Part shown: positions 12,319 to 15,835 of the stretch, piece by piece
How positions within the stretch are numbered: position 1 is the first letter of the stretch
How the letters are laid out: every line of letters begins with the position of its first letter
NCBI GenBank assembly: GCA_031655335.1
Contig: CP134226.1
Span: forward strand, 2,560,001-2,624,000
From: Thalassospiraceae bacterium LMO-SO8
GTDB lineage: Bacteria; Pseudomonadota; Alphaproteobacteria; Rhodospirillales; Casp-alpha2
Reading direction: 5' to 3'
DNA: 64,000 nucleotides
Notes under the pieces: model-generated
Databases searched by the model: none
Told to the model about the DNA's origin: nothing
The model's input: the letters and a program-made list of their open reading frames with translations, nothing else
Program-made: the position numbers and the translations under genes

Positions 12319-12735
12319 TCATTTCGCGCTTTTCAGGTATTCGATGATCAGCGCGCGCTGATCTTCTTTCTTCAGGCCCGGATAGGCCATCTTGGTCGTC
12401 GCCTTGGGGTCGCCCAGATAGTCTTGCAGGAACTTTTTGGGGTTGGTGATATAGGCGTCGAGGGTCTTGGCGTCCCACACCAGGCCTTTTTCGCCGGCGG
12501 CGACCATGGAGCTGGAATAGCGCGACGTCTTGAAGCCTTCGGCCGTACCGGCCTTGCGCCCGATGATGTTGTTCAGGGACGGGCCGATGGTGTGCTTGCC
12601 GGAAACCGTATGACACTGTGCGCAGCGGTTGCCCTTGAACGCCTTGGCGGCGTCGGCCTGGACGGGGGCGGCGGCCACCATCATCGAGGCTGTGATGCCG
12701 GCCACCGCGGCGGCCATTAGGGAAGCGTGTTTCAT
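12319..12735 (-). CDS. Class I c-type cytochrome
   Basis: A 138-residue periplasmic cytochrome c. A signal peptide (about 1-27) is followed by the heme-attachment motif CAQCH at residues 38-42, and the distal ligand is probably M116 in TKMAYPG. The GPSLNNIIGRKAG and DYLGDPKATTKM segments resemble mitochondrial-type cytochrome c / c2 of Alphaproteobacteria, so an electron carrier between the bc1 complex and an oxidase or reductase is likely. It is convergent with the third TAXI gene and divergent from the DUF2336 gene. Confidence 0.93.
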   Translation of the reverse strand: MKHASLMAAAVAGITASMMVAAAPVQADAAKAFKGNRCAQCHTVSGKHTIGPSLNNIIGRKAGTAEGFKTSRYSSSMVAAGEKGLVWDAKTLDAYITNPKKFLQDYLGDPKATTKMAYPGLKKEDQRALIIEYLKSAK

Positions 12736-12954: not shown

Positions 12955-14118
12955 ATGCCGGTAGATAATCTAAGCAAAGCGGATGTTGCCAAGCTTTTGT
13001 CCGACCCCACGCCGGACAACCGCGCCGCGACCGCCGCCAAGGTCGCCGGGGCCTTCGATCCCGGCAAGCTGAGCCCCACCGAGCGGGCCCTTGCCGAGGA
13101 AATCTTTCGCCTGATGGTCAAGGACGCGGAGGTCCGCGTGCGTCAGGCATTGACGGAAAACCTGAAGCAGAACGGCAACGTGCCGCACGACGTGGCGGTG
13201 GCTTTGGCCAACGACATCGACCAGGTGGCGCTGCCGATGATCGAGTTTTCCCAAGTCCTGAACGACGACGACCTGATCGCCATCATCGGATCGCAAGACC
13301 CCGCCAAGCAGGAAGCCGTCGCCGGCCGCGCCACCGTGTCGGAGGCATTATCCGACGCCCTGGTCAGTTCCGGCAACGAGGCGGCGGTGACCCGTCTGGT
13401 CGCCAACGAGGGGGCGGCCATTTCCGAAAGCACCTTCCAGAAGGTGGTTGACGATTTCGGCGACCGCGCCGGGGTGCAGTCGGCCATGGTCAACCGAGCC
13501 TCCCTGCCGGTGACGGTGGCCGAACGGCTGGTGACCCTGGTGTCGGAAAACCTGCGTGACCAGTTGGTCAAACGCCACGAACTGCCCGCGTCGATGACCA
13601 CGGACATCATCCTGCAATCGCGCGAGCGGGCGACCATCAGCCTGTCCTCCGATTCCGGTGTCGATGACGTGATGATCCTGACCCGCCAGTTGAATGACAA
13701 TGGCCGCCTGACGCCGTCGATCACCCTGCGGGCGCTGTGCATGGGCGACATCACCTTTTTCGAATGCGCGATGGCGACACGGGCGGGGGTCACGCTGGAA
13801 AATGCGCGGCGTCTGATCCACGACCGCGGCCCCCTGGGCCTGCGCGCGATATTCGACAAGGCCAAGCTGCCGCCGGCCCAGTTCATGGCCGTGCGCGCGG
13901 CGCTCGACGTCAGCCGGGAAACGGAAATGGATGGTGGCGAGAACGACCGCGAACGCTATGCCCGGCGCATGATTGAGCGGATCATGACCCAGTACGACGA
14001 CCTGGGCGTCGAGTTCGAGTCCTCGGACCTGGAATACCTGTTGACCAAGATGGATGAATTGCCCGCCGACGTGCTGGGCGACGACGGGCCGGGCACCGTG
14101 GCCGGCGCGGGCCAGTAA
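12955..14118 (+). CDS. DUF2336 domain-containing protein
   Basis: A 387-residue soluble protein made of repeated alpha-helical units that resemble HEAT repeats, as seen in the alphaproteobacterial DUF2336 family. Recurrent helices include the KDAEVRVRQALTENLK and DDDLIAIIGSQDPAKQEAVAGR segments. No catalytic motif is visible and the molecular function of the family is not settled. The C-terminus is acidic. It has no signal peptide and stands alone between a divergent cytochrome c gene and a convergent DctP-like gene. An AGGAG sequence lies rather far (about 13 nt) before the ATG. Confidence 0.85.
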   Translation: MPVDNLSKADVAKLLSDPTPDNRAATAAKVAGAFDPGKLSPTERALAEEIFRLMVKDAEVRVRQALTENLKQNGNVPHDVAVALANDIDQVALPMIEFSQVLNDDDLIAIIGSQDPAKQEAVAGRATVSEALSDALVSSGNEAAVTRLVANEGAAISESTFQKVVDDFGDRAGVQSAMVNRASLPVTVAERLVTLVSENLRDQLVKRHELPASMTTDIILQSRERATISLSSDSGVDDVMILTRQLNDNGRLTPSITLRALCMGDITFFECAMATRAGVTLENARRLIHDRGPLGLRAIFDKAKLPPAQFMAVRAALDVSRETEMDGGENDRERYARRMIERIMTQYDDLGVEFESSDLEYLLTKMDELPADVLGDDGPGTVAGAGQ

Positions 14119-15453: not shown

Positions 15454-15474
15454 TTATTCACAATCTGTGGATAT
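15454..15474. promoter_or_regulatory. Pair of inverted DnaA-box-like sequences
   Basis: TTATTCACA (15454-15462) matches the DnaA box pattern TTATnCACA. After 3 bp, TGTGGATAT (15466-15474) reads ATATCCACA on the other strand, one mismatch from TTATCCACA. The pair lies between the divergent DctP-like gene and the FNR-controlled unit. There is no dnaA, hemE or AT-rich unwinding region here, so a regulatory or titrating site is more likely than an origin. Confidence 0.45.
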
Positions 15475-15509: not shown

Positions 15510-15523
15510 TTGATTTAGATCAA
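15510..15523 (+). promoter_or_regulatory. FNR/FixK-type box
   Basis: TTGATTTAGATCAA matches the FNR/FixK/Anr consensus TTGAT-N4-ATCAA perfectly. A -10-like TAAAGT lies at 15547-15552. The box centre (15516.5) is about 30 bp from the -10 start, the spacing expected for an activating class II site at about -41.5. This predicts a transcript starting near 15558 and induced when oxygen is low. The divergent DctP-like gene starts 156 bp away and could also be affected. Confidence 0.8.
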
Positions 15524-15583
15524 TGCCGGCGCCTTTCCCGGCGCCCTAAAGTCATGCCATTGGAACCACGGGAATTTCGAAAG

Positions 15584-15688
15584 ATGACGACAGGAAGCAT
15601 GATTTTTCTTGGTGTTTGCATCGCCGCCGCCGTTGCGTTCATGGCTGCGGCCGCCTACGGCATTCGTCACACCAACAACCCCCGCTAG
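15584..15688 (+). CDS. Putative 34-residue single-helix membrane microprotein
   Basis: A short frame from ATG 15584 to a stop at 15688 encodes 34 residues: a short polar start, one hydrophobic helix rich in Ala and Val (about residues 6-25), and a basic tail ending RHTNNPR. That is the build of small accessory subunits of respiratory oxidases, but no known family is recognised. It sits 60 bp after a perfect FNR box and is followed by a strong terminator, so it is the only frame in its own transcription unit. The ribosome-binding site is weak (GAAAG), and an internal ATG at 15599 follows AGGAAG very closely. The unit could instead make an untranslated sRNA. Confidence 0.5.
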   Translation: MTTGSMIFLGVCIAAAVAFMAAAAYGIRHTNNPR

Positions 15689-15750
15689 GCGGGTCCGCAT
15701 TCGTTAGGGCATTACGCCCGATCCGACCCCAAGGATTGGCAAACCCACGG

Positions 15751-15782
15751 CCCCGGTCCGCGTTCGCGCGGGCCGGGGTTTT
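15751..15782 (+). terminator. Rho-independent terminator of the FNR-controlled unit
   Basis: CCCCGGTCCGCG and CGCGGGCCGGGG form a 12-bp stem (one G-T pair) around a TTCG loop, followed by TTTT. It closes a predicted transcript of about 225 nt that starts near 15558. Confidence 0.85.
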
Positions 15783-15835
15783 GCGTTTGGCGGCGAATCG
15801 GACGGGGCGCGAAATTCGAAGGGGTCGGGCGGCCG

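Follow-up and report, generated by a model that had tools for sequence, protein, structure and literature searches.

A putative oxygen-responsive transcript of an alphaproteobacterium that encodes a membrane microprotein and may carry a second, RNA-level function

FnrS of Escherichia coli and SicX of Pseudomonas aeruginosa are short monocistronic RNAs that are activated by FNR or Anr and end in terminators; to our knowledge, neither contains a conserved transmembrane open reading frame (ORF) of the microprotein kind. Short proteins with a single helix are found under the same type of control, FixQ/CcoQ and CydX being oxidase subunits of this kind encoded in FNR/FixK-controlled operons. The system that by its layout appears to be the closest precedent for the locus described here is PhrS of P. 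aeruginosa, an Anr-dependent RNA of 213 nt with a 37-codon ORF, whose peptide is described as having no known role; past the ORF, at nt 169-182, comes an element of 12 nt that is highly conserved (PMC9308961). PhrS is also treated in the literature for its dual-function status (PMC8395346, accessible part). A second precedent, from the same class of bacteria as the present locus, is the alphaproteobacterial small coding RNA Pos19 (RSs0019) of Rhodobacter sphaeroides, which is 219 nt long and has a translated small ORF and a terminator (PMC5036791); RSs0019 is also entered in the CrpK/FnrL section of a ChIP-seq table (PMC4263372). Pos19 differs, however, in having an RpoE-dependent promoter and an ORF of 150 nt, it is reported in R. 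sphaeroides strains only, and its main text uses neither the word FnrL nor the word transmembrane (PMC5036791).

The locus analyzed here lies in a 64,000-nt stretch of DNA from Thalassospiraceae bacterium LMO-SO8 (hereafter the window), which is part of a 3.98-Mb single-contig genome. Its features, numbered from the first nucleotide of the window, are as follows:

15510-15523, plus strand: FNR/FixK-type box TTGATTTAGATCAA (from the sequence, a pattern search of the window and genome, and 8/8 genomes of the genus)
15547-15552, plus strand: -10 element TAAAGT at class II distance, with a predicted start near 15558 (from the sequence and an alignment of the family loci)
15584-15688 including the stop codon, plus strand: 34-codon ORF MTTGSMIFLGVCIAAAVAFMAAAAYGIRHTNNPR with one hydrophobic helix (from the ORF list, comparison and AlphaFold2)
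15704-15745, plus strand: hyperconserved block in the 3' UTR (from an eight-genome alignment, folding and the covariance model R1)
15749-15780, plus strand: intrinsic terminator stem-loop, the end of the unit (from the sequence and paired changes)

Box, ORF and terminator occur together in all eight sampled genomes of the genus (the window genome and seven relatives). The predicted transcript is about 220 nt long, with the ORF at nt 27-131, the block at nt 147-188 and a hairpin loop at nt 168-175. With FnrS and SicX the unit shares the short, monocistronic, FNR-type layout closed by a terminator. The likeness to PhrS, as far as the accessible parts of its sources go, extends to the regulator (Anr is of the FNR class), the length (213 nt compared with ~222 nt predicted here), the ORF (37 codons compared with 34) and the position of the conserved element (nt 169-182 compared with the loop at nt 168-175). 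Likewise, we find both a short ORF under protein-level selection and, outside it, a separate conserved non-coding element, in which 37 of 42 positions are invariant. PhrS, however, comes from another class of bacteria, the comparison being one of layout and not of sequence, and acts on known targets (on pqsR through the ORF upstream of it), whereas inspection of the window yielded none for the present unit; moreover, it is the ORF and not the RNA element that is the widespread part here. We propose, with a probability of about 0.6, that the locus produces an oxygen-responsive dual-function transcript of ~220 nt, which would encode a membrane microprotein and carry a trans-acting RNA element in its 3' region. 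Directly visible in the sequence comparison are the box, the promoter spacing, selection on the ORF as coding sequence and on the 3' block as non-coding sequence, and a terminator maintained through paired changes.

TTGATTTAGATCAA is the sole perfect match to TTGAT-N4-ATCAA in the window; with up to one mismatch there are three matches, compared with a shuffle mean of 0.89, and 7 of 100 shuffles reach three. In the whole genome the perfect pattern has five sites, each found on both strands, and a reversed control pattern has none. Three of the five stand in sensible contexts, namely before the microprotein unit, before a gene for a di-haem cytochrome c peroxidase and ~320 nt before napD-napA, and at neither of the other two (L001/L124 and L005) is a respiratory target evident. 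The looser pattern TTGAYN4RTCAA additionally has a perfect site ~300 nt before ccoN. Genes for the peroxidase, Nap and CcoN count among the classical targets of FNR/FixK, which makes it probable that this organism uses sites of this type.

Among the eight genus genomes, pairwise diversity is 0.074 in the box compared with 0.475 before and 0.454 after it, and in the seven relatives the box lies 72-81 nt before the ATG. The centre of the box is 41.5 nt from the predicted start at 15558, and the spacing between box and -10 element is ungapped in 8/8 genomes; two near-identical genomes of the genus (L010, L011) have a poor hexamer. The arrangement recurs among the homologues of the microprotein. 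When the box was sought with its start 45-115 nt upstream of the ATG, a perfect TTGAYN4RTCAA was found at 42 of 54 family loci, which are not independent because they include near-duplicates (L010/L011, L144/L145), and a site with at most one mismatch at 46; control windows of the same size at the same loci gave 4/2026 and 20/2026, respectively. Left out beforehand were the presumed chance matches with long or broken frames listed below, together with L039 (whose match contains a stop codon and which shares its genus with L036 and L038), L053 (whose match lacks a start), L122 (where the contig ends within the upstream region), L142 (at the position of L077) and L147. A good box is missing at eight loci, L036 and L038 (one genus), L052, L064, L134, L140, L141 and L146; for L146, taken here as a miss, the scoring had used a wrongly placed start. 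The 41 non-genus loci recruited by protein score have a perfect box in 29 cases and one with at most one mismatch in 33; this count leaves out the genus, L123, L150 and L033 to L035, which had entered the first alignment after their boxes had been seen.

When the 46 loci are aligned on the box, an A at +30.5 (33 loci) and a T at +34.5 (31 loci) stand out; these are positions two and six of a -10 hexamer compatible with transcription starting 41.5 nt downstream of the box centre, a class II architecture. By box position and matching -10 element, the family loci thus look like FNR/FixK class II targets with predicted starts, and we infer that the unit is induced at low oxygen by a regulator of this type. 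The initial annotation had described a perfect FNR/FixK site, a TAAAGT -10 element at class II spacing and a self-contained oxygen-controlled unit. The site at 15510-15523 is confirmed and kept in 8/8 genus genomes, the -10 spacing holds throughout the genus with a signal that recurs over the family loci, and the unit as a whole finds support far beyond the window genome (42/54 loci compared with 4/2026 controls).

The same annotation had placed a 34-codon frame with one transmembrane helix behind this promoter, and had proposed comparing frame and box in relatives. The frame is borne out at 15584-15688, and both it and the box are kept in the seven other genus genomes, where the ORF is 68-88% identical. 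Pairwise diversity at codon positions 1, 2 and 3 is 0.188, 0.117 and 0.45, the leader between box and ATG having 0.454, and dN/dS is at most 0.46 in all genus pairs that allowed its computation (27 of 28), some of which are close to saturation at synonymous sites or beyond it. These patterns indicate an ORF that is coding and under purifying selection at the protein level. AlphaFold2 predicts one helix at residues 3-31 (mean pLDDT 90.5), and 19-residue hydropathy means reach 2.48 within the 34-residue protein. Lysine and arginine are more numerous after the helix than before it in 33 of 38 family members, which by the positive-inside rule suggests that the microprotein has its N terminus outside and its C terminus inside. 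It would be expected to insert into the membrane and to act there with a partner.

We consider it very improbable that the unit is a purely non-coding, FnrS-like small RNA in which the frame is incidental. Such an RNA would accord with the short FNR-type monocistronic unit, the terminator and the hyperconserved 3' block, but dN/dS is well below 1 within the genus, and in distant genomes the ORF keeps its start, length and hydrophobic pattern despite diverged DNA.

The family has a consensus of roughly M-T-x-G-E-x-x-[YF]-L-x9-F-x3-L-A-[WY], and in profile searches it reaches, patchily, beyond its own bacterial family into the rest of the order and the class Alphaproteobacteria. The matches examined were the fetched loci together with G065 and G012. 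Several were dropped as chance matches with long or broken frames, L077, L078, L080, L081, L085 and L086 on inspection, and L082 to L084 and L149 by frame length alone. In the class-wide sample we judge about 25 of 385 genomes to be carriers by eye, that is, those with a short frame at E<=1e-3 plus G517 (E 0.003), G378, G414 and G320 being excluded; 69 of the 385 match at E<=0.1, many of them by chance. The rows of the family alignment used (A3, with the window ORF as its first row) were picked after boxes had been seen: boxed L050, L051 and L054 went in and boxless L052, L053 and L066 stayed out, while boxless L064, L069 and L074 also went in. The class-wide search may therefore favor boxed matches.

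The absence of a recognizable family, already remarked on from the sequence, holds against the libraries: Pfam, NCBIfam and PHROGs give no convincing match and the PDB sequences none. In Pfam, none of 38 members scores above threshold (FixQ has a best E of 0.028, in 3/38, and PhrC_PhrF E 0.0064 in one member); the best single NCBIfam match among 22 members is GPS-CTERM (E 0.00089, 1/22); and PHROGs gives phrog_9340 at E 0.0084 in one of 38 members. A search of plasmids for homologues returned nothing, or one chance match at E 8. By these searches, the family appears to be unnamed in the libraries covered and scattered over the Alphaproteobacteria. It was not recognized in the accessible parts of the literature consulted (PMC4999443, PMC4842269, PMC4263372, PMC4634722, PMC5036791, PMC9308961, PMC8395346, PMC10117765), although the FnrL ChIP-seq papers list hypothetical proteins, some of which may be members (PMC4263372, PMC4634722).

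When the 396 neighbor ORFs of 41 loci were clustered, every gene family was limited to five loci at most, so that no conserved neighborhood emerges, and the nearest downstream ORF is convergent at 22 of 37 non-genus loci by a crude ORF caller. Some individual neighborhoods hint at low-oxygen respiration. In G012 the homologue (L123, G012:C135) is followed directly by ccoNOQP, the two having separate boxes (region around 0 to +3654 from the ATG), and nearby are apparent genes for a hemerythrin, a universal-stress protein (Usp) and a regulator of the FNR/Crp type; the homologue precedes a cytochrome c gene in G038 and a hemerythrin gene in G011. Two further observations concern the flanks of homologues. 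At L103, a second hydrophobic ORF of 33 residues (MEFFGVRIFPFVVLLCALFPYIEQVYNHRNREE) lies at +127 to +228 from the ATG of the homologue, before a cytochrome c gene. At L063 and L132, in two genomes of another genus, a common stretch about CTTGATCCTCYGTTAACGRTCCC lies downstream of the ORF, where a neighboring unit may begin or the clade may have a 3' element of its own.

The initial annotation had offered a small oxidase or membrane accessory protein as one identity for the unit. In the oxidase version, the microprotein would belong to a terminal oxidase of high affinity (cbb3 or bd), either as a small subunit akin to CcoQ or CydX or as a factor in its assembly, which would be compatible with either reading of the RNA; we regard this as improbable. 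The family is indeed short, with a single helix and FNR/FixK-type control, as are FixQ/CcoQ and CydX, and besides the ccoNOQP neighborhood in G012, where the boxes are separate, the class-wide counts lean its way: ccoN is found in 18/25 carriers compared with 136/360 other genomes (one-sided Fisher p 8e-4, relatedness ignored) and cydA in 15/25 compared with 136/360 (p 0.025, relatedness again ignored). Under the plain rule of E<=1e-3 the carriers number 19/27 for ccoN and 16/27 for cydA. At the order level, however, where carriers include weak members and non-carriers were chosen by hand, ccoN is found in 16/30 carriers compared with 14/20 chosen non-carriers; these counts include the sub-cut-off G076 (a carrier) and G009 (a non-carrier), and become 15/30 and 13/20 above the cut-off. 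All co-occurrence counts were read by eye.

The exceptions and profile comparisons also bear against an oxidase subunit. We did not find ccoN in 7/25 class carriers or 14/30 order carriers, and 5/25 class carriers have neither ccoN nor cydA, although two of these genomes are less than 90% complete; among the five, G649 has a perfect box, G626 and G327 have one mismatch, G440 has two, and G393 has no good box. In one bacterial family of the sample (f20; L104, L105, L111-L114), boxes are perfect in six genomes without a detected ccoN, of which 2/6 are at least 90% complete, and the gene seems to be used there without a cbb3 oxidase. In the window genome, ccoN lies ~1.9 Mb from the microprotein gene and has its own CcoQ. 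The family thus differs from FixQ/CcoQ in standing outside the oxidase operon of that genome, in occurring where ccoN was not found, in lacking the C-terminal tail of CcoQ and in remaining below the Pfam threshold: HHalign gives 30% probability over 21 columns locally and 4% globally, the FixQ/CcoQ family PF05545 reaches E 0.028 at best in 3/38 members, and the microprotein gene is not within ccoNOQP. The CydX Pfam family is absent from the matches at E<=0.1 of the 38 members. With co-occurrence, neighborhood and CcoQ profile comparison all unconvincing, the oxidase subunit was rejected as a candidate, and the suggestion of an oxidase subunit is, as it stands, not supported, given the missing conserved neighborhood, the lack of a convincing Pfam or NCBIfam match and the order-level counts. 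If we were to guess, the partner would be the bc1 complex or another common membrane complex.

New relative to the initial annotation is the hyperconserved block at 15704-15745, between the stop codon and the terminator. In the eight genus genomes 37 of its 42 positions are invariant, and its diversity is 0.044, compared with 0.45 at third codon positions, 0.454 in the leader and 0.165 in the terminator region. The block is not coding because a 1-nt length difference occurs inside it, in two near-identical genomes of the eight; a hidden coding frame was rejected on this ground. The pattern indicates non-coding selection on the block that is stronger than the selection on the ORF. Its predicted structure comprises a GGGC/GCCC stem and a hairpin GATCC-(RACCCCAA)-GGATT with CCCC in the loop, followed by GGCAAACCC. 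The hairpin appears in single-sequence folds of 5/5 3' UTRs, and the GGGC/GCCC stem in a single one of these folds as well as in the consensus structure. The five 3' UTRs, terminator included, fold with z of -3.1 to -5.7 relative to shuffles; the whole 226-nt transcript, at z -1.16, does not fold better than shuffles, 26/200 of which fold equally well. The two small stems of the block are invariant in the eight genomes, so covariation is uninformative on them.

The terminator, which had been proposed to end the unit, is confirmed as a stem of 14 pairs, 11 of them G-C, with a modest T tail TTTTGCGTTT. The stem is paired in 8/8 genus genomes and changes on both sides at 2/12 pairs; 30 of 500 shuffles reach two such pairs, and 3 of 500 reach the covariation score.

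The covariance model R1 has one strong match in each genus genome (8/8, E 2.2e-17 or better), which makes the element single-copy. Among the 23 of 31 genomes that lie outside the genus, ten match at E<=1, the best (E 0.0024) being in an apparent dehydrogenase gene, and we take all of these matches to be chance. The block was not found in 77 other loci, mostly surroundings of non-genus homologues and many overlapping each other, and an RNA function, if real, therefore looks young or diverged. No copy was found in viral contigs, and Rfam gives no match at gathering score at the locus, only two at chance level (E 0.72 and 1.1). In the window, CTTGGGGT has four sites (shuffle mean 1.77), of which one is the loop and three appear antisense to likely genes; no RNA target was identified among them.

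The block might instead act in cis, through stability, processing, termination efficiency or as a landing site for an RNA chaperone, in a transcript that is a microprotein mRNA without targets in trans. We consider this unlikely without being far-fetched: it is the ORF that is distributed widely, the block having turned up in the genus only, and the block sits directly before the terminator. The C-rich loop and its flanks, however, are more conserved than the terminator region (0.044 compared with 0.165), and a purely cis-acting stem could vary with compensation, yet does not. Pairing RNAs conserve a C-rich loop and its flanking bases strongly. In the genus, the hyperconserved element is best explained as a second, RNA-level function, and a trans-acting role is the form of it that we infer. 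The initial annotation had posed protein and small RNA as alternatives; each gains support, the protein from selection on the frame and the RNA from non-coding selection on the 3' UTR, and it is the either/or that falls. With a frame under protein-level selection and a 3' UTR under stronger non-coding selection, both functions are likely.

In the dual-function model, an FNR/FixK-type activator would bind 15510-15523 at low oxygen and, from a class II position, recruit RNA polymerase to the TAAAGT -10 element. The transcript would start near 15558 and stop at the terminator at 15749-15780. Its translation would yield the 34-residue single-helix membrane microprotein, probably oriented N-out and C-in, which would likely serve as an accessory or stabilizing peptide of a common membrane or respiratory complex. 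In the genus, the 42-nt 3' element would present its C-rich hairpin loop (ACCCCAA) to other RNAs, and the whole transcript or a processed 3' fragment could pair with target mRNAs near G-rich ribosome sites. A wider evolutionary account is tentative, and we put it slightly below even odds: an FNR-controlled microprotein family old enough to be class-wide, whose mRNA gained a trans-acting C-rich riboregulator in one genus of the Rhodospirillales, would have arrived independently at a PhrS-like solution, in which oxygen sensing controls a membrane peptide and, in addition, an RNA that silences mRNAs.

The microprotein is apparently FNR/FixK-controlled in many Alphaproteobacteria and unnamed in Pfam, NCBIfam, PHROGs and the PDB sequences, and part of the low-oxygen response may consequently escape notice in studies of the class. 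Should the 3' element prove to act in trans, the spread of the ORF over the class and the finding of the RNA element in one genus only would suggest a route by which a small mRNA of older origin takes on a second function as an RNA.

As for the surroundings of the unit in the window, the opposite strand upstream encodes a DctP-type (TRAP) solute-binding protein, and on the downstream side a 247-residue frame without assignment is convergent with the unit. Further upstream are a c550-like cytochrome c (12319-12735, minus strand) and a DUF2336/SpbR-family protein (12955-14118, plus strand). At 15454-15474, 5' of the FNR box, the sequence TTATTCACA-ATC-TGTGGATAT contains two inverted 9-mers, TTATTCACA and TGTGGATAT, which we take to resemble DnaA boxes, and several other genomes of the genus share it.
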